From positions 1 to 48,130 of the forward strand of contig JAHDQW010000004.1 of the NCBI GenBank assembly GCA_018433585.1: a stretch of DNA of 48,130 nucleotides, in the 5' to 3' direction. The notes under the pieces are model-generated. The model did no database searches. It was not told the origin of the DNA and was given only the letters and a program-made list of their open reading frames with translations. Origin of the DNA: Candidatus Praeruminimicrobium purgamenti (GTDB lineage Bacteria > Elusimicrobiota > Endomicrobiia > Endomicrobiales > Endomicrobiaceae). Positions 8,303-14,960 of the stretch are shown here, in pieces; position 1 is the stretch's first letter, and each line of letters starts with the position of its first letter. The translations under genes were made by a program, and so were the position numbers.

Positions 8303-8821
8303 TTATTTTTTCAACAAACATTGCCTTGCTTTTAATATGAATTCTGCAGCCGTAGAGCAAATATAATCAGGATACGTCCAAGGCAACTTGATAAATCCCC
8401 CTTTCTTATATATGGTGGTAACTTCGGCATATATGCCTTCGGAAAGGTATATTCTGTGGCTAAAGTCTTTGGTAGAAGCTAAAATAACGTTTGCAGGAGT
8501 TATATATCCCGGATCTATATTTATTATTCTGTTTTTATTTTTTGATATATAAGCTTCCAGATCATTTGTCGCAACTTTTATTCCCGCAAGCCTGCCGGGA
8601 GACAGTAAAGTTTCAAAAGATATCCATTGTCTTTTAAGATTTTCGCCCATTTCGGGATTATAATACTGCGTAAACGAAAAATCTATGATTTCGCTCTTTA
8701 TGTCGATTTTAATATTGAATTTATCTTCAATCAATTTATAAACTTCTTCCGTATTAACGGAAGAATTAAAAATTAAACCGCAGAAAAATTTTGCCAAATG
8801 AACCTGGTTTATCTGTCCCAT
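8303..8821 (-). CDS. DUF4416 family protein
   Basis: The 172-residue soluble protein matches what I know of the DUF4416 family: KFFCGLIF at the N-terminus, FTQYYNPEMG, a central NIDPGYITPANVILAS block, HRIYLSEGIYAEVT and the ending WTYPDYI. No member has a known reaction to my knowledge. It is transcribed divergently from glnA and just ahead of the MFS gene. There is no signal peptide or membrane segment. The start is the ATG at 8821 with no clear Shine-Dalgarno. Confidence 0.75.
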   Translation of the reverse strand: MGQINQVHLAKFFCGLIFNSSVNTEEVYKLIEDKFNIKIDIKSEIIDFSFTQYYNPEMGENLKRQWISFETLLSPGRLAGIKVATNDLEAYISKNKNRIINIDPGYITPANVILASTKDFSHRIYLSEGIYAEVTTIYKKGGFIKLPWTYPDYICSTAAEFILKARQCLLKK

Positions 8822-8951: not shown

Positions 8952-8980
8952 TTGACAAACAAAATTTTTTGTTGTAGAAT
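8952..8980 (+). promoter_or_regulatory. Strong sigma70-type promoter of glnA
   Basis: TTGACA at 8952-8957, a 17-bp spacer and TAGAAT at 8975-8980 predict a start near 8987 and a leader of about 109 nt before the glnA ATG. No sigma54 -24/-12 signature (GG-N10-GC) was noticed here. Confidence 0.8.
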
Positions 8981-9005
8981 TATTACAAATTAAATATAGT
9001 GATTT

Positions 9006-9058
9006 GGGCAAAGGTGCTTAAAAGGTTATGATGAAATCTTTTAAGCATTTTTGTTTTT
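9006..9058 (+). promoter_or_regulatory. Nitrogen-leader hairpin 1: putative attenuator of glnA
   Basis: The element begins GGGCAAAG (9006-9013) and continues into a stem TGCTTAAAAG (9015-9024) paired with CTTTTAAGCA (9038-9047), extendable by G-U and A-U pairs on both sides. A T-rich run (TTTTTGTTTTT, 9048-9058) follows, as in an intrinsic terminator. It lies inside the glnA leader, after the promoter and before the ribosome site, and the upstream gene is divergent, so it cannot terminate an upstream transcript. It shares GGRCAAAG with elements at 10477 and 11941. Confidence 0.7.
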
Positions 9059-9095
9059 AAAAGAACGAAATTAAAAAAATGGAGGTATCTTTATT

Positions 9096-10424
9096 ATGGG
9101 TTACACAAAAGAAGATATTATCAGGATGGTCAAAGAAGAAGACGTAAAATTTATCCGTTTACAATTTACAGATATTTTCGGTATGCTTAAGAATGTTGCT
9201 ATTACTGCAAGCCAAATCGAAAAAGCAATGGATAACAAATGTATGTTTGACGGTTCTACAATTGAAGGTTTTACAAGAATTGAAGAAAGTGATATGTACC
9301 TTTATCCGGATCCTGACACATTCGTAATTTTCCCTTGGAGACCTCAGGACGGAAAAGTTGCAAGACTTATCTGCGACGTTTATACTCCGGACGGAAAGCC
9401 TTTTGCGGGATGTCCTAGAAATATTTTGAAAAGAAACCTAAAAGATGCTGCAGATCTAGGATATACGTTTAACGTAGGTCCAGAGTTGGAATTTTTCTTA
9501 TTCCTTACGGATGAAAAAGGAAAGCCTACTACACAGACCCACGATGACGCGGGATATTTTGATTTAGCTCCTATAGATTTAGGCGAAAGCGCAAGAAGAG
9601 ATATGTGCTTAACGCTTGAAGCAATGGGTTTTGAAATAGAAGCTTCACACCACGAAGTTGCCAGAGGACAGCACGAAATAGACTTCAAATACGGCGATGC
9701 TTTAAAAACTGCCGACAACATCAACACATTTAAGCTTGTTGTTAAATCAATAGCTCAAAAACACGGACTGCATGCTACATTTATGCCGAAGCCGATATTT
9801 GGTATAAACGGTTCCGGTATGCATACAAACCAGTCATTATTTAAAAACGGCAAAAATGCTTTTTATGACGAAAAAGATAAATTGCAGCTGTCAGGAGAAG
9901 CTTACAGCTATATAGCCGGTCTTATGAAGCATATAAAAGCTATGTCTGCTATTACAAATCCTTTGGTCAATTCATATAAGAGATTGGTTCCTGGATATGA
10001 AGCCCCTGTTTACATAGCATGGTCGGCAAGCAACAGAAGTCCTCTTATAAGAATACCTGCAGCAAGAGGCGCATCAACAAGAATAGAACTCCGCTGCCCG
10101 GATCCTTCATCAAATCCTTACTTTGTTTTAGCGGCATGTTTGGCAGCAGGACTTGACGGTATTAAGAATAACTTAAAAGTAAGCCAGTCAACGGACAGAA
10201 ACATATTTAAAATGACCCAGGATGAAAAAGACAAGGCAGGAATCGAAAGTTTGCCTCATAATTTGATTAACGCTGTTCAGGCTATGCAGAAGAGCGATCT
10301 TATGAAGAAAACTCTCGGAGATCATGCTTTTGAACTGTATACCGAAGCTAAGATTAACGAATGGGACGCTTACAGAACAAAAGTTCACCAGTGGGAAATT
10401 GACGAGTATTTAATAAATTATTAG
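9096..10424 (+). CDS. glnA: Type I-alpha glutamine synthetase
   Basis: The 442-residue enzyme makes glutamine from glutamate, ammonium and ATP. It closely follows the Bacillus GSI-alpha pattern: [17 protein letters not shown] (with the feedback-control arginine of the GFxRIEESDM motif), the metal-binding [27 protein letters not shown] and the [12 protein letters not shown] active-site block. The adenylylation tyrosine of GSI-beta enzymes is absent from the region after DRNIF, so covalent control by GlnE is unlikely. A GGAGG site precedes the ATG. Control probably acts through the leader hairpin at 9006-9058. Confidence 0.96.
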
Positions 10425-10476
10425 TATTTAGCAGTATTTAAGCGGTATCGTTCTTAAAATTTAAAATAGACAATAT

Positions 10477-10521
10477 GGACAAAGATGTCCAGGAGAGTAT
10501 CACGTACCTTCTGGACATCTT
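10477..10521 (+). promoter_or_regulatory. Nitrogen-leader hairpin 2, between glnA and purF
   Basis: GGACAAAG (10477-10484) leads into a stem: 10482-10495 pairs with 10508-10521 with one G-U pair, and after a bulged A the pairing continues at 10497-10499 with 10505-10507. The loop region contains CGTA at 10503-10506, also seen in element 3. It is followed by TAACTTTTC rather than a clean T-run, and the purF ribosome site AAGGAG starts 8 bp later. It could attenuate transcription or shield the ribosome site. Confidence 0.65.
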
Positions 10522-10540
10522 AACTTTTCAAGGAGAAGAT

Positions 10541-11911
10541 ATGTGTGGGATATTTGCAATAGAAAATAATGTTGATTCCGCAACCTTAGCTTTTGCAGGT
10601 TTAATTACCCTGCAGCACAGAGGCGAAGAGTCTGCCGGTATAACAGCAAACGGCGACGGCAATACATATAACACACATAAAGCTATGGGGTTGGTATCCC
10701 AGATCTTTAAAGAAAAGGTTTTAAACAATTTATCAGGTAAAGTGGCAATAGGGCATGTCAGATACAGTACGCATTCTGAAAGTTCTTTACTAAACGCCCA
10801 GCCGTTTGTATATAACTGCATTCACGGAAATATTGCAGTAGCGCATAACGGAAATATTACAAATTTTGAAAAGATAAAAAACAGACTTGCTAAAAGCGGT
10901 TCTATTTTCAATCATACGTCTGATACGGAAATAGTTGCTCATTTAATTGCCGAAAATACAGGAAAAACGACAGGTCAGATTATCAAAAAATCAGTTCAAA
11001 GTCTTGAAGGCGCATTTTCCTTGGTATTTATCCACGGAAATAAATTGATAGGAGTAAGAGATTCCTTCGGCTTCAGGCCTTTGGCTCTCGGCAAAATAGA
11101 TAACTCGTATATCCTTGCATCCGAAACAAGCGCAATAGACGCTATAGGCGGCAAATTTATAAGAGATATTAAGCCCGGAGAGATTATAGTAATTGAAAAC
11201 GGGAAAATAACAGAGTCCCTGCAATTTACAAAAAAAGTTAAAGAAAAATTGTGTATCTTTGAACAGGTATATTTTTCAAGACCGGACAGCATACTCTGCG
11301 GAAGAAATATAAAAGATGCCAGAGTTGATATGGGCAGGTATCTGGCGCAGCAAATGAAGCATATAAAAGCCGATGTTGTCGTTCCGGTACCGGACACCGG
11401 ATTATTTTCGGCTCAGGGGTTTTCTCAATATTCCGGAATAGATTTACAGATAGGTTTCATAAGAAACCATTATGTAGGAAGAAGTTTTATAAAACCGTCT
11501 CAAAAAATGAGAGAAATTACGGCAAAATTGAAATTATTCCCGATAAAAGATGTTATCAACGGGAAAAGAATAGTTCTTATAGATGATTCGCTTGTAAGAG
11601 GGACGACTGCACAGAAAATAGTTTCAACTTTAAGAAATGCAGGCGCAAAAGAAATACATTTGGCGTTATCGTCTCCTGCGGTAATATCTCCGTGTTTTTA
11701 CGGTATAGATACTCCGATTAAAAGCAAGCTGATAGCAGCCGTAAAATCTGTTGAAGAAATAAAAGAGTTTTTGAATGTCGACAGTTTGACATTCCTTGAC
11801 ATAAACAATATGAAAAAAGCGTGCGGCAACGGCAAACCTAATAATTTTTGCTGTGCCTGTTTCGACGGCAAATATCCGTCAAAAATAGATAAAAATAAAT
11901 TAAACGCTTAA
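10541..11911 (+). CDS. purF: Amidophosphoribosyltransferase (first step of purine synthesis)
   Basis: This 456-residue PurF converts PRPP and glutamine to phosphoribosylamine. The start is set at 10541, behind AAGGAG, because it gives MCGIF with Cys2 as the N-terminal glutaminase nucleophile; a longer frame from 10475 would bury that cysteine and run through the hairpin. The glutaminase half has LQHRGEESAG, RYSTHSES and AHNGNITN. The C-terminal half has the PRPP loop IVLIDDSLVRGTT. Cysteines in KLCIFEQVYF, ISPCFYG and FCCACF match the 4Fe-4S ligands of the Bacillus-type enzyme, but the usual short propeptide is missing. It lies between glnA and the amtB group, with a hairpin element on each side. 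Confidence 0.92.
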   Translation: MCGIFAIENNVDSATLAFAGLITLQHRGEESAGITANGDGNTYNTHKAMGLVSQIFKEKVLNNLSGKVAIGHVRYSTHSESSLLNAQPFVYNCIHGNIAVAHNGNITNFEKIKNRLAKSGSIFNHTSDTEIVAHLIAENTGKTTGQIIKKSVQSLEGAFSLVFIHGNKLIGVRDSFGFRPLALGKIDNSYILASETSAIDAIGGKFIRDIKPGEIIVIENGKITESLQFTKKVKEKLCIFEQVYFSRPDSILCGRNIKDARVDMGRYLAQQMKHIKADVVVPVPDTGLFSAQGFSQYSGIDLQIGFIRNHYVGRSFIKPSQKMREITAKLKLFPIKDVINGKRIVLIDDSLVRGTTAQKIVSTLRNAGAKEIHLALSSPAVISPCFYGIDTPIKSKLIAAVKSVEEIKEFLNVDSLTFLDINNMKKACGNGKPNNFCCACFDGKYPSKIDKNKLNA

Positions 11912-11940
11912 GTTCTTTATAACTACAAATAAATAAAACT

Positions 11941-11988
11941 GGACAAAGCAGCCCAAGAGATTTTCGTATCTTTTGGGCTGCTTTTTTT
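11941..11988 (+). promoter_or_regulatory. Nitrogen-leader hairpin 3: terminator or attenuator before the porin-amtB-glnB group
   Basis: GGACAAAG (11941-11948) runs into a 17-bp stem (11945-11961 with 11968-11984, one G-U pair) with a six-base loop, followed by seven T (11982-11988). It has all marks of an intrinsic terminator. It shares the GGRCAAAG start and a CGTA loop segment (11965-11968) with the other two elements, so it may be a conditional terminator controlling read-through into the ammonium-uptake genes, or also simply end purF. Confidence 0.75.
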
Positions 11989-12040
11989 ATATTTGTTTTT
12001 TCACAACTGCTTTAAATAATTTTGCAAAGAGGCAAAAAAT

Positions 12041-12049
12041 AAAGGAGGT
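12041..12049 (+). other. Perfect Shine-Dalgarno without a standard start codon behind it
   Basis: AAAGGAGGT stands 53 bp before the porin ATG, which has its own AAAGGAG at 12088-12094. The only start-like codons nearby are ATT at 12059 and TTG at 12064; the TTG frame would encode 13 codons and end in TGA overlapping the porin ATG. It may be a tiny leader ORF, a ribosome standby site, or chance. Confidence 0.35.
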
Positions 12050-12101
12050 ATTTTACCGATTTTTTGTTTCGTTTGTTAAATTTTATTAAAGGAGATTCAA
12101 A

Positions 12102-13130
12102 ATGAAAAAAAGATTTTTATTTGCAGTTTTTGCAGCATTACTTTTAACTGTCACATCATCATCAATCGTAAAAGCCGAAGAACTTTCGGCAGCATCGGTA
12201 GCAAGCGTATTATCCGGATGGAAGTTCAGCGGAGACCTCACAACATTTGCATCTTTTAAATCGGAAGAAAGATCAACGGATTCAAAACTTAATTTTTCTT
12301 ACATGCAGTTTTATGCGGAAAAACAGATTCAAAAAGACATGACGGTTTACTTGTCCATGGTTGTAAACAACAGAGCTTATAATAATGACCAAAACAATTA
12401 TGAAACAACCATCTTGGTTGACACAGCTTTCTTATCTTATGCCGTAAACGACGTTTTAAGCATACACGCAGGTAGAGAGATTATCAATTACGGATATCAA
12501 AATCCAATATCCATAATAGATGAAAAATTTGCAATGCTGCCTGCAATGTCGCTTTCTTATTTCGGAGGTTATGTGTTGAGAGGCGACGGGATAGGAATCG
12601 CCTTAAGAAATTCCGCAGTCGACGTAAATGCGGCTTATATGAATATCCCTACAGATAACACTATCAACGGAAAATCTTATTACGCCAGAGTAAGCAAAAC
12701 CATAGGGCATTTAACTGTCGGAGCAAACGGATTAATTTCAAAAGGTCCTGATTACGCCACAAACGATGATACCGTATCTTATTTTGGTCCTGACGTAAAG
12801 TTCCAAAACGATTTGCTTGATTTCAGAACGGAAGTTATTTTTGCAAACAGGGAAACAGAATTTACGCCCGGTACAGGGACAGAATCTATAAACAGAATAG
12901 GATTTTATTCACAGGTTACGGTAAATCTTCTTTCTGCAAAGAAATTATATGTCGGTTCAAGACTTGATTACGTTGAACCTTATACACAGCCTAAAGAAAT
13001 CAACAGATATCTCAGCGGCGTAGTAGGTTCTTATCTGTATGACAATGTTTTGGTAAGAGCCCAGTTTAAATCAAATATTGACGAAGGAAAAGATTCTGAA
13101 GCAGGGCTTATGCTGACGGTTACATTTTAA
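12102..13130 (+). CDS. Outer-membrane beta-barrel porin of the ammonium operon
   Basis: The 342-residue protein has a clear signal peptide (KKR, hydrophobic core, VKAEE cleavage region) and then alternating polar/hydrophobic strands rich in aromatic residues, ending in the hydrophobic MLTVTF with a C-terminal phenylalanine typical of barrels inserted by BamA. I cannot assign a named family with certainty; it looks like the porins that precede amt genes in some diderms. The start is chosen at ATG 12102 behind AAAGGAG. It is followed 23 bp later by amtB, so it probably admits ammonium or small amines across the outer membrane (inference). Confidence 0.75.
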   Translation: MKKRFLFAVFAALLLTVTSSSIVKAEELSAASVASVLSGWKFSGDLTTFASFKSEERSTDSKLNFSYMQFYAEKQIQKDMTVYLSMVVNNRAYNNDQNNYETTILVDTAFLSYAVNDVLSIHAGREIINYGYQNPISIIDEKFAMLPAMSLSYFGGYVLRGDGIGIALRNSAVDVNAAYMNIPTDNTINGKSYYARVSKTIGHLTVGANGLISKGPDYATNDDTVSYFGPDVKFQNDLLDFRTEVIFANRETEFTPGTGTESINRIGFYSQVTVNLLSAKKLYVGSRLDYVEPYTQPKEINRYLSGVVGSYLYDNVLVRAQFKSNIDEGKDSEAGLMLTVTF

Positions 13131-13153
13131 AATTAATAAAATAGGAGGCTAAA

Positions 13154-14530
13154 ATGAAAAAGGTATTTTTTACACTGTTGTTTTGTTTTGTTTCTCTGTT
13201 TGCGTTTAACATCGTACAAGCAGAGGAAATGGCGGTGACGCAGGAAGCAGTTGCAGTAACGACAGATTCTGTTCAGGCTGTTCCGGCTGCAGCTGTCGCC
13301 GAAGAACCTGCAGCTCCGAAAGTAGATACCGGAGATACTGCATTTATGCTTGTTTGTGCGGCATTGGTTATGTTGATGACTCCGGGGCTTGCTTTGTTTT
13401 ACGGGGGCATGGTAAGAAGAAAAAATATTTTGGGTACAATGATGCAAAGCTTTGTCGCACTGGGAGTAATCACGATAATATGGCTTGTCTACGGATACAG
13501 CCTTGCATTCGGCCCTGACGTAGGACATATTATAGGAAGCTTAAAATGGTCTTTTCTAAAGGGAGTCGGACTTGACCCTAATCCGGACTATTCCGCAACT
13601 ATCCCCCACCAGCTTTTTATGATATTCCAAATGATGTTTGCAATTTTGACGCCTGCTTTGATAACCGGCGCTTTTGCGGAAAGATTTAAATTTAAATCTT
13701 ATCTTATATTCCTTGTTCTGTGGCTTACGATCGTTTATTGCCCTCTGGCGCACTGGGTATGGGGTGTAGGCGGATGGATAAGAAATCTCGGAGGATTGGA
13801 TTTTGCAGGCGGTCTTGTAGTTCATATAGCTTCAGGTACGTCGGCTCTTGCGGCAATATTGATTGTAGGAACAAGAAGAGGTTACAGAAGAGAAAATATG
13901 CCTCCTCACAGTTTGCCTCTTACGCTGCTCGGTACGGCTCTTTTGTGGTTCGGCTGGTTCGGATTCAATGCAGGAAGCGCTTTGTCGGCAGGGCAATTGT
14001 CGGCATCAGCTTTTGTTGCAACACACATAGGTGCAGGAAGCGCAGTGCTGGCATGGATGTTTGCTGAATGGATGCACAGAGGCAAACCTACGGTTTTGGG
14101 TGCTTTGTCTGGGGCGGTAGCCGGTCTTGTCGCAATAACACCCGGTTCCGGCTTCGTAACTCCTATATCTGCAATGTTTATAGGTATAGCAGGCGGACTT
14201 ATATGTTACTTTGCGGTTAACATGAAAGAAAAATTCGGATATGACGATTCTCTCGATGTCGTAGGCGTCCACGGAGTAGGCGGACTTGTAGGAGCACTTT
14301 TGACCGGTGTTTTTGCTACCACTCTTGTAAACCCTGCAGGTGCGGACGCAAGTTTCGGATTATTCAAAATTCAGGCTCTCAGCGCATTGGCTTCAATAAC
14401 TTATTCTTTTGTAGTTTCTTTCATACTGTTGAAGATAGTAGATAAAGTTTTCGGATTGAGAGTTGAAGACAAAGAAGAACTTCAGGGACTTGATTTGTCG
14501 CAGCACGGAGAAAGCGGATATAGATTTTAG
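13154..14530 (+). CDS. amtB: Ammonium transporter (Amt/MEP/Rh family)
   Basis: The 458-residue inner-membrane channel has a cleavable N-terminal signal (about residues 1-23), an Ala/Val/Glu-rich linker to about residue 58 and then the 11-helix Amt core. The ammonium site Asp lies in GLDFAGGLVVH, whose His (residue 224) is the first member of the twin-His pair; the second is in VVGVHGVGG (residue 373). AHWVWGVGGW is the conserved aromatic segment. A GGAGG site precedes the ATG. It is followed by glnB after 26 bp, the classic amtB-PII pair, in which PII blocks the channel when nitrogen is plentiful. The unusually long periplasmic linker is a small oddity. Confidence 0.96.
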   Translation: MKKVFFTLLFCFVSLFAFNIVQAEEMAVTQEAVAVTTDSVQAVPAAAVAEEPAAPKVDTGDTAFMLVCAALVMLMTPGLALFYGGMVRRKNILGTMMQSFVALGVITIIWLVYGYSLAFGPDVGHIIGSLKWSFLKGVGLDPNPDYSATIPHQLFMIFQMMFAILTPALITGAFAERFKFKSYLIFLVLWLTIVYCPLAHWVWGVGGWIRNLGGLDFAGGLVVHIASGTSALAAILIVGTRRGYRRENMPPHSLPLTLLGTALLWFGWFGFNAGSALSAGQLSASAFVATHIGAGSAVLAWMFAEWMHRGKPTVLGALSGAVAGLVAITPGSGFVTPISAMFIGIAGGLICYFAVNMKEKFGYDDSLDVVGVHGVGGLVGALLTGVFATTLVNPAGADASFGLFKIQALSALASITYSFVVSFILLKIVDKVFGLRVEDKEELQGLDLSQHGESGYRF

Positions 14531-14556
14531 TTATAATATAAACGAAGGAGGATAAA

Positions 14557-14895
14557 ATGAAAAAAGTAAGCGCAATAATAAAACCATACATGGTAGAAGA
14601 CGTTAAAAATGCTCTGAAAGAAATAGGCGTTAACGGTCTTACAAAATCCAATGTTGAAGGTTTTGGAAAACAGGGCGGGCATAAAGAAATTTACAGAAGC
14701 AAGGAATACTGCGTTCAATTTGTAGTTAAAGCAAAGATTGACGTTATCGTACAGGATGAGATGGTAGATAAAGTTATAAACGTTATAATAAAAATAACTA
14801 GAAGCGGAGAAATAGGAGACGGCAAGATTTTCGTCTATCCGGTAGAAAGAGTCATTAGAATCAGAACAGGAGAAGAAGGAGAAAAAGCGATATAG
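14557..14895 (+). CDS. glnB: Nitrogen regulatory protein PII (GlnB/GlnK)
   Basis: The 112-residue trimeric signal protein senses 2-oxoglutarate, ATP/ADP and, where a uridylyltransferase exists, glutamine. The T-loop KEIYRSKEY carries Tyr51, the usual uridylylation site, and Tyr46. The C-loop region GEIGDGKIFVYPVERVIRIRTGE is the family signature (here longer than the 20-letter limit is not needed: key part GDGKIFV and RIRTGE). It follows amtB with an AAGGAGG site and therefore is most like GlnK in function: it probably gates the transporter. A strong terminator follows. Confidence 0.94.
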   Translation: MKKVSAIIKPYMVEDVKNALKEIGVNGLTKSNVEGFGKQGGHKEIYRSKEYCVQFVVKAKIDVIVQDEMVDKVINVIIKITRSGEIGDGKIFVYPVERVIRIRTGEEGEKAI

Positions 14896-14917
14896 CATCC
14901 TGTTGCAATATTTTACA

Positions 14918-14960
14918 GAAAAAAATCTCCATCTTTTAATACGGATGGAGATTTTTTTTT
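14918..14960 (+). terminator. Intrinsic terminator after glnB
   Basis: ATCTCCATC (14925-14933) pairs with GATGGAGAT (14944-14952), extended by an A-run on the left pairing with the nine or so T on the right. It ends the porin-amtB-glnB unit before ilvB. Confidence 0.85.

Follow-up and report, generated by a model that had tools for sequence, protein, structure and literature searches.

The glutamine synthetase gene glnA in the genome of an uncultured Endomicrobiaceae bacterium (Elusimicrobiota) is preceded by a terminator-like hairpin located inside its own leader, which raises the question of how transcription passes this hairpin and what decides that it does. The window, the whole stretch of 48,130 nucleotides that was analysed, is contig C17 of this genome; the features discussed are listed in Table 1. 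The leader very probably represents an attenuator that is opened by an ANTAR protein through a single hexaloop, and is one gate of a nitrogen regulon.

Table 1. Features of the glnA-glnK region and the ANTAR gene. Positions refer to the window unless another locus is named.
Feature	Position	Strand	Evidence or remark
DUF4416 gene upstream of glnA, divergent	8303-8821	-	ORF and domain
Sigma-70-type promoter of glnA, TTGACA-17-TAGAAT	8952-8980	+	sequence, promoter-match scan
Predicted leader 5' of the antiterminator, ~19 nt	8987-9005	+	transcription start inferred from the -10 box
Putative antiterminator (P2-type) hairpin GGGC[AAAGGU]GCUU, hexaloop with A1 and G4	9006-9019	+	folding; covariation over 64 distinct sites
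Intrinsic terminator, U-rich tail to 9058	9010-9058	+	folding; 5' arm includes antiterminator loop and 3' half
RBS of glnA, GGAGG	9081-9085	+	sequence
glnA, glutamine synthetase GSI-alpha (Bacillota-like)	9096-10424	+	ATG at 9096, protein comparison, tree
Putative antiterminator hairpin of purF, GGAC[AAAGAU]GUCC	10477-10490	+	folding, motif
Terminator overlapping it in the glnA-purF gap, dG -24.6	10481-10528	+	folding
purF, amidophosphoribosyltransferase	10541-11911	+	ORF, protein match
Putative antiterminator hairpin of the porin-amtB-glnK operon, GGAC[AAAGCA]GCCC	11941-11954	+	folding, motif
Terminator overlapping the porin-leader hairpin, dG -27.1	11945-11990	+	folding
Second hexaloop hairpin of the porin-amtB-glnK leader, UUGC[AAAGAG]GCAA	12022-12035	+	present in four genomes
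Porin-like ORF	12102-13130	+	candidate regulated gene
amtB	13154-14530	+	candidate regulated gene
P-II (glnK)	14557-14895	+	candidate regulated gene
ANTAR gene (L145)	1475-2068 of locus L145 (C10 of the genome)	-	domain search

Two hairpins in the glnA leader

The first-pass annotation had described a promoter, a stem-loop with a T-run, a ribosome site followed by glnA, and a divergent gene upstream, and all of these are present. The -35 box (8952-8957) is perfect and is separated by 17 nt from the -10 box (8975-8980); with 11/12 matching letters, this promoter is among the two best sigma-70-like matches on the plus strand in 14 kb. The region 9006-9058 folds with a dG of -22.5 kcal/mol, compared to -7.0 +/- 2.3 in shuffled sequences (z = -6.85; 0/200 shuffles), positions 9010-9027 being paired with 9035-9052 in a stem which is extendable to 9006/7-9055.

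The most conserved part of the leader is not the terminator stem; it is GGGCAAAGGUGCUU at the terminator foot, which had been overlooked. The glnA leaders of relatives share a short (T)KGGCAAAGGYGCYY at this place, and their terminator stems vary with compensation (15 pairs, 9 of which changed on both sides). The predicted folded form of the conserved element is N-N-R-C[A..G..]G-Y-N-N, namely, a 4-bp stem closed by a hexaloop with A at position 1 and G at position 4 (A1 and G4), and the 3' half of this hairpin is the 5' arm of the terminator. Judged from sequence and predicted fold, it is the type of hairpin recognised by ANTAR antiterminator proteins. In the glnA leader its stem contains two G.U pairs (-1.6 kcal/mol). 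Stepwise folding of the lengthening leader yields a weak hairpin near this position early, while the terminator becomes dominant once about position 9046 has been reached; unaided folding prefers a slightly shifted small hairpin and, therefore, the 4-bp form would need a protein.

The encoded GlnA matches 4lnf- and 7tdp-type enzymes over the full length, and the Salmonella-type 2gls only partially. The adenylylation tyrosine is missing, as had been noted (NIF, versus NIY in the best solved relative), and GlnE was not found in a genome search in which controls behaved as expected; the full-length matches and the GlnE result identify the protein as a GSI-alpha enzyme without adenylylation. GSI-alpha enzymes generally are not adenylylated and are subject to feedback inhibition instead, so that the missing tyrosine offers no basis for the earlier proposal that attenuation is the main control of glnA expression. 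This role is plausible on other grounds, since sigma-54, and hence NtrC-type control, was likewise not found in the genome search (controls again as expected), nor was GlnE.

Conservation of the hexaloop hairpin and its regulon

A covariance model made from 16 leaders was run over 60 genomes. Anchoring on C[A..G..]G retained 73 sites in 24 genomes, while four of the 77 model matches (in G056, G059, G016:C76 and G012:C8) were dropped for a missing hexaloop; matches on the opposite strand (e.g. 11940-12003 minus) were rejected as palindrome artefacts. Both A1 and G4 occur at 73/73 sites, although the invariance of these letters and of the closing C-G pair is weaker proof than covariation, since the anchor fixes them: A1 and the closing pair are partly built in by the initial regular expression and the anchor rule, G4 and stem pairs 2-4 being less predetermined. 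Loop positions 3, 5 and 6 are variable, and among the loops AATG, AAGG, AACG and AGCG position 3 differs with G4 retained. Stem positions 2-4 covary over the 73 sites, 94.5% of the cells being paired versus 78.4% after shuffling, and the covariation score of the mini-hairpin is 0.625 versus 0.283, a value reached by 0/500 shuffles. The signal is far above that of all slid registers and is abolished by a one-base shift of the partners.

At 70/73 sites the terminator stem includes both the loop and the 3' arm of the hairpin, so that the antiterminator and terminator folds are mutually exclusive. The mean dG is -20.6 for the terminator versus -2.6 for the 4-bp hairpin alone, which therefore needs stabilising. 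In the ANTAR targets described earlier (Ramesh 2012, PMC3369931) the second hairpin, P2, is located at the 5' base of the terminator. Three features of that description are found here, namely, an A1/G4 hexaloop whose stem has 3 bp or more, the overlap of P2 with an intrinsic terminator at the 70/73 sites, and an ANTAR protein encoded in the genome that carries the sites.

Among the 36 Endomicrobiaceae genomes, sites were found in 21/23 with an ANTAR gene and in 2/13 without one (Fisher p = 8.7e-6, which overstates independence because the genomes are related). A laxer search of the 13 ANTAR-negative genomes added one weak match only. The exceptions are G042 and G046, with ANTAR and no match, and G050, which is 86% complete and has matches with no ANTAR gene found. 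In genus g8, 6/6 genomes checked contain neither ANTAR nor sites. Genus g8 and most of g11 have no ANTAR gene and no GSI-type glnA, with sites absent or weak; the whole system was apparently lost in these lineages. Transcription attenuation, as suggested in the first-pass annotation, is thus well supported by a conserved and covarying terminator, a competing conserved antiterminator hairpin and the tracking of sites with the ANTAR gene; the likely agent, the antiterminator and the membership in a regulon had not been noticed.

The genes downstream of the 73 sites are mostly nitrogen genes. In relatives they include amt, glnA, purF, the ANTAR gene, porin, dapF and diaminopimelate dehydrogenase, as well as genes for a urea-amidolyase-associated protein (UAAP2), glutamate dehydrogenase, a GSIII-type synthetase, a polyamine-binding-protein-like product and an AbgT-type transporter. 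The ANTAR gene is located just 3' of glnA in many relatives, and in six genomes a site immediately precedes it. Outside Endomicrobiaceae, G032 has a single good site ahead of a glutamate dehydrogenase gene, and G025 has one close to a GSIII-type gene. Two or three gates in tandem were observed before amt, purF or glnA (G010:C25 18578-18866, G044:C72, G047:C43, G019:C15, G004:C246 and G002:C17).

In the genome studied the model recognises five such leaders, the other operons for ammonium assimilation being included. They precede glnA and purF, porin-amtB-glnK, the gene for a glutamate-synthase amidotransferase, and the operon with the only ANTAR gene. Within the window, GGGCAAAGGUGCUU recurs twice after glnA, each time with its own terminator. 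The start of purF is likely the ATG of MCGIFAIEN rather than the mechanical ORF start at 10475. No clear promoter was seen before the purF and porin gates, so that glnA-purF-porin-amtB-glnK may be one transcript (8952-14895), on which serial gates may each also terminate the preceding gene, with read-through from glnA. The hairpin at 12022-12035 is followed by a weak terminator-like stem consisting of A/U pairs only, and may act as a weak second gate or in translation control.

Several other features of this region were recorded. The porin-leader hairpin has an A.C mismatch at the second stem pair, both in the window and in G001, G007 and G017. The longer form of the second hairpin, UUUUGC[AAAGAG]GCAAAA, corresponds to UUUUGC[AAAGGA]GCAAAA or UUUUAC[AAAGGC]GUAAAA in relatives, with a conserved GGAGGU after each. 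The porin-like protein contains a signal peptide, has no Pfam match and shares its leader with amtB-glnK. Behind the P-II gene, at 14917-14960, there is a terminator-like repeat in which the motif is missing; it resembles an ordinary terminator. Glutamate synthase is apparently split, its amidotransferase, GXGXG and ferredoxin/FAD parts being encoded separately in two operons, each of which has a gate at its head (G000:C10 5335-9438 and ~19900, minus strand).

The single ANTAR gene of the genome encodes a 197 aa protein with a REC-like domain and an ANTAR domain. It belongs to an operon on contig C10 in the order ferredoxin, FAD oxidoreductase, glutamate-synthase-like GXGXG protein, ANTAR and carA, which is headed by a gate of the same family (9646-9720). 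Of the EutV residues that contact the hexaloop (PMC8934654), Arg142, Lys143, Glu160 and Met172 are invariant in 30/30 Elusimicrobiota ANTAR domains, while Tyr164 is Tyr in 22, including the protein of this genome, and Phe or His in 8. The substitutions here relative to EutV are Lys147 and Lys149 to Arg, Arg168 to Gln and Asn173 to Asp. The REC-like domain retains the phospho-acceptor Asp in 17/17 proteins; its acidic pair and Thr are lost across the family, making control by phosphorylation uncertain, and the signal input may be other than ordinary phosphorylation. The ANTAR proteins of Elusimicrobiota outside Endomicrobiaceae are alignable over the ANTAR domain only, and their N-terminal parts appear GAF-like by eye.

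The upstream region and alternative explanations

EutV requires a pair of hairpins, P1 and P2, separated by 5-12 nt, and P1 is needed in vivo (PMC3369931). In the leaders analysed here, an upstream hairpin with an A1/G4 hexaloop was found at 6/71 sites compared to a mean of 5.6 in dinucleotide shuffles, i.e. at chance level, and with Watson-Crick pairs only at 6 of 71 versus 2.8; a P1 at a short linker, the remaining feature in the description of Ramesh 2012, was therefore not detected above chance at these sites. The 32 nt upstream of the hairpin show slightly less structure than their shuffled counterparts (z = +1.5). There is also little room for P1, since at most sites with a promoter the distance from the end of the -10 box to the hairpin is about 20-27 nt; a -35/-10 pair is present at many sites in relatives, at a distance similar to that in the glnA leader. 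In place of P1, a loose linear AACUUAAUA box stands upstream, and in the form AACTTAATA, 4-9 nt before the hairpin, it matches 8/9 letters at 26/70 sites versus 3.5 in shuffles. At the glnA site of the window no AACTTAATA box was found at that match level, and AACUUAAUA is weak there.

These data bear on whether the leader is a canonical dual-hairpin ANTAR target with a weak P1. The EutV requirement speaks for such a reading, as does a 3-4 bp hairpin with an A1/G4 loop, AAAU[AUAGUG]AUUU, drawable at the glnA site alone. This structure is not conserved and has zero linker, while positions 8987-9005 contain no canonical P1 with a 5-12 nt linker; together with the chance-level frequency of upstream hexaloops and the lack of excess structure, this makes a dual-hairpin target unlikely. 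An AUAG 'loop without stem' noticed upstream by eye failed as a hairpin.

Readings that dispense with an ANTAR protein are less probable still. A short conserved leader with a terminator ahead of glnA would suit a riboswitch binding glutamine or another metabolite, but no Rfam family, including the glutamine riboswitch, was matched at gathering score (at a permissive threshold there were weak matches to eukaryotic miRNA-like hairpins only), and the 14-nt conserved core fits the ANTAR rules exactly and tracks with the ANTAR gene, so that a riboswitch is very improbable. We assign a similarly low probability to an unregulated constitutive terminator, an mRNA-stabilising hairpin or a chance inverted repeat: AT-rich genomes are rich in terminator-like repeats (14 found in 14 kb versus 11.4 expected), but neither the covariation within a short hairpin that takes no part in termination nor the distribution over nitrogen genes is accounted for in this way. 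The least probable of all is attenuation through a leader peptide, the 10-codon ORF MMKSFKHFCF starting at 9031 inside the hairpin. Its ATGATG has AAAGG upstream at 9010-9014, but a leader of the same genus reads GGTTAGAACAAATC at that place, with no ATG; the ORF contains no glutamine codons, and no such ORF occurs at other sites.

Proposed mechanism and comparison with known ANTAR systems

The hairpin, its terminator overlap, covariation and A1/G4 loop, the list of sites, their co-occurrence with the ANTAR gene and the conserved RNA-contact residues are the observations from which we infer ANTAR binding, antitermination, a nitrogen signal and autoregulation. By default, the nascent RNA would form the long terminator and transcription would end about 70 nt from the start. 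In the active state, presumably triggered by nitrogen limitation, as for NitR, an ANTAR dimer would bind the hexaloop of the hairpin at 9006-9019 as it emerges and hold it; because the held hairpin uses the 5' arm of the terminator, the latter could not form, and glnA would be transcribed. The same gate would operate ahead of purF, porin-amtB-glnK, the glutamate-synthase amidotransferase and the ANTAR operon, in which case the ANTAR protein would regulate its own synthesis.

In the phylogenetic tree, GlnA of Endomicrobiaceae nests with strong support within Bacillota, apart from GlnA of other Elusimicrobiota. By this placement glnA is of Bacillota origin, and the linked ANTAR gene probably is as well; the simplest reading would be that a glnA-ANTAR module was transferred and that the gate then spread to further nitrogen genes. 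In clostridial glnA leaders (loci L037-L111), an A1/G4 hexaloop over a terminator was found at 20 strictly scored leaders, and 21/26 glnA loci with the hexaloop hairpin have a linked ANTAR gene. Unlike the single hairpin of Endomicrobiaceae, some clostridial leaders (L038 and L040) carry two hexaloop hairpins; P1 candidates occurred in 7/20 clostridial leaders, compared to a chance expectation of 2.2, and most of them have odd linkers.

The structure of the EutV complex raised the question of why two hexaloops are used if the EutV dimer binds one, defined a single hexaloop as the minimal site and called for bioinformatic and experimental work on such sites (Walshe 2022, PMC8934654). The structural feature of this minimal site appears to be present here on sequence grounds, and the contact residues are mostly conserved. 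With about 70 natural single-hexaloop sites overlapping terminators, the two-hexaloop question becomes directly testable. The sites also provide a testable nitrogen regulon for a mostly uncultured lineage that includes gut symbionts, in a genome where the enterobacterial nitrogen controls sigma-54/NtrC and GlnE were not found. More broadly, in Endomicrobiaceae and perhaps in NitR-type systems generally, P1-independent ANTAR antitermination could be achieved by one hexaloop, located no more than ~20 nt from the 5' end and assisted by a linear element of the AACUUAAUA type, whereby a single ANTAR protein whose receiver-like domain is atypical would run the nitrogen-assimilation network; we consider this wider proposal evenly poised.

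The closest known system is that of NitR, the ANTAR regulator of the GS/GOGAT cluster in Clostridium saccharobutylicum (Stutz et al. 2007, as summarised in PMC6316151). As in a NitR-type system, an ANTAR regulator is found together with sites at genes of the GS/GOGAT cycle, antitermination is the inferred mode of action, and the ANTAR gene adjoins glnA in many relatives. The differences are the phylum, the location of the ANTAR gene in a glutamate-synthase-like/carA operon, and a regulon that appears to include purF and porin-amtB-glnK, with dapF, ddh and genes associated with urea added in relatives. With the targets of EutV, NasR and AmiR (Ramesh 2012, PMC3369931; Walshe 2022, PMC8934654) the leaders share the A1/G4 hexaloop, a short covarying stem, the overlap with an intrinsic terminator and a dispersed regulon. 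Unlike those targets, they contain a single hexaloop with no P1 and, at many sites, a linear upstream box, and the REC-like domain of the protein keeps the phospho-Asp without a conserved acidic pair and Thr. As read from the leaders, the single-hexaloop form without P1 is what is new relative to known ANTAR targets.
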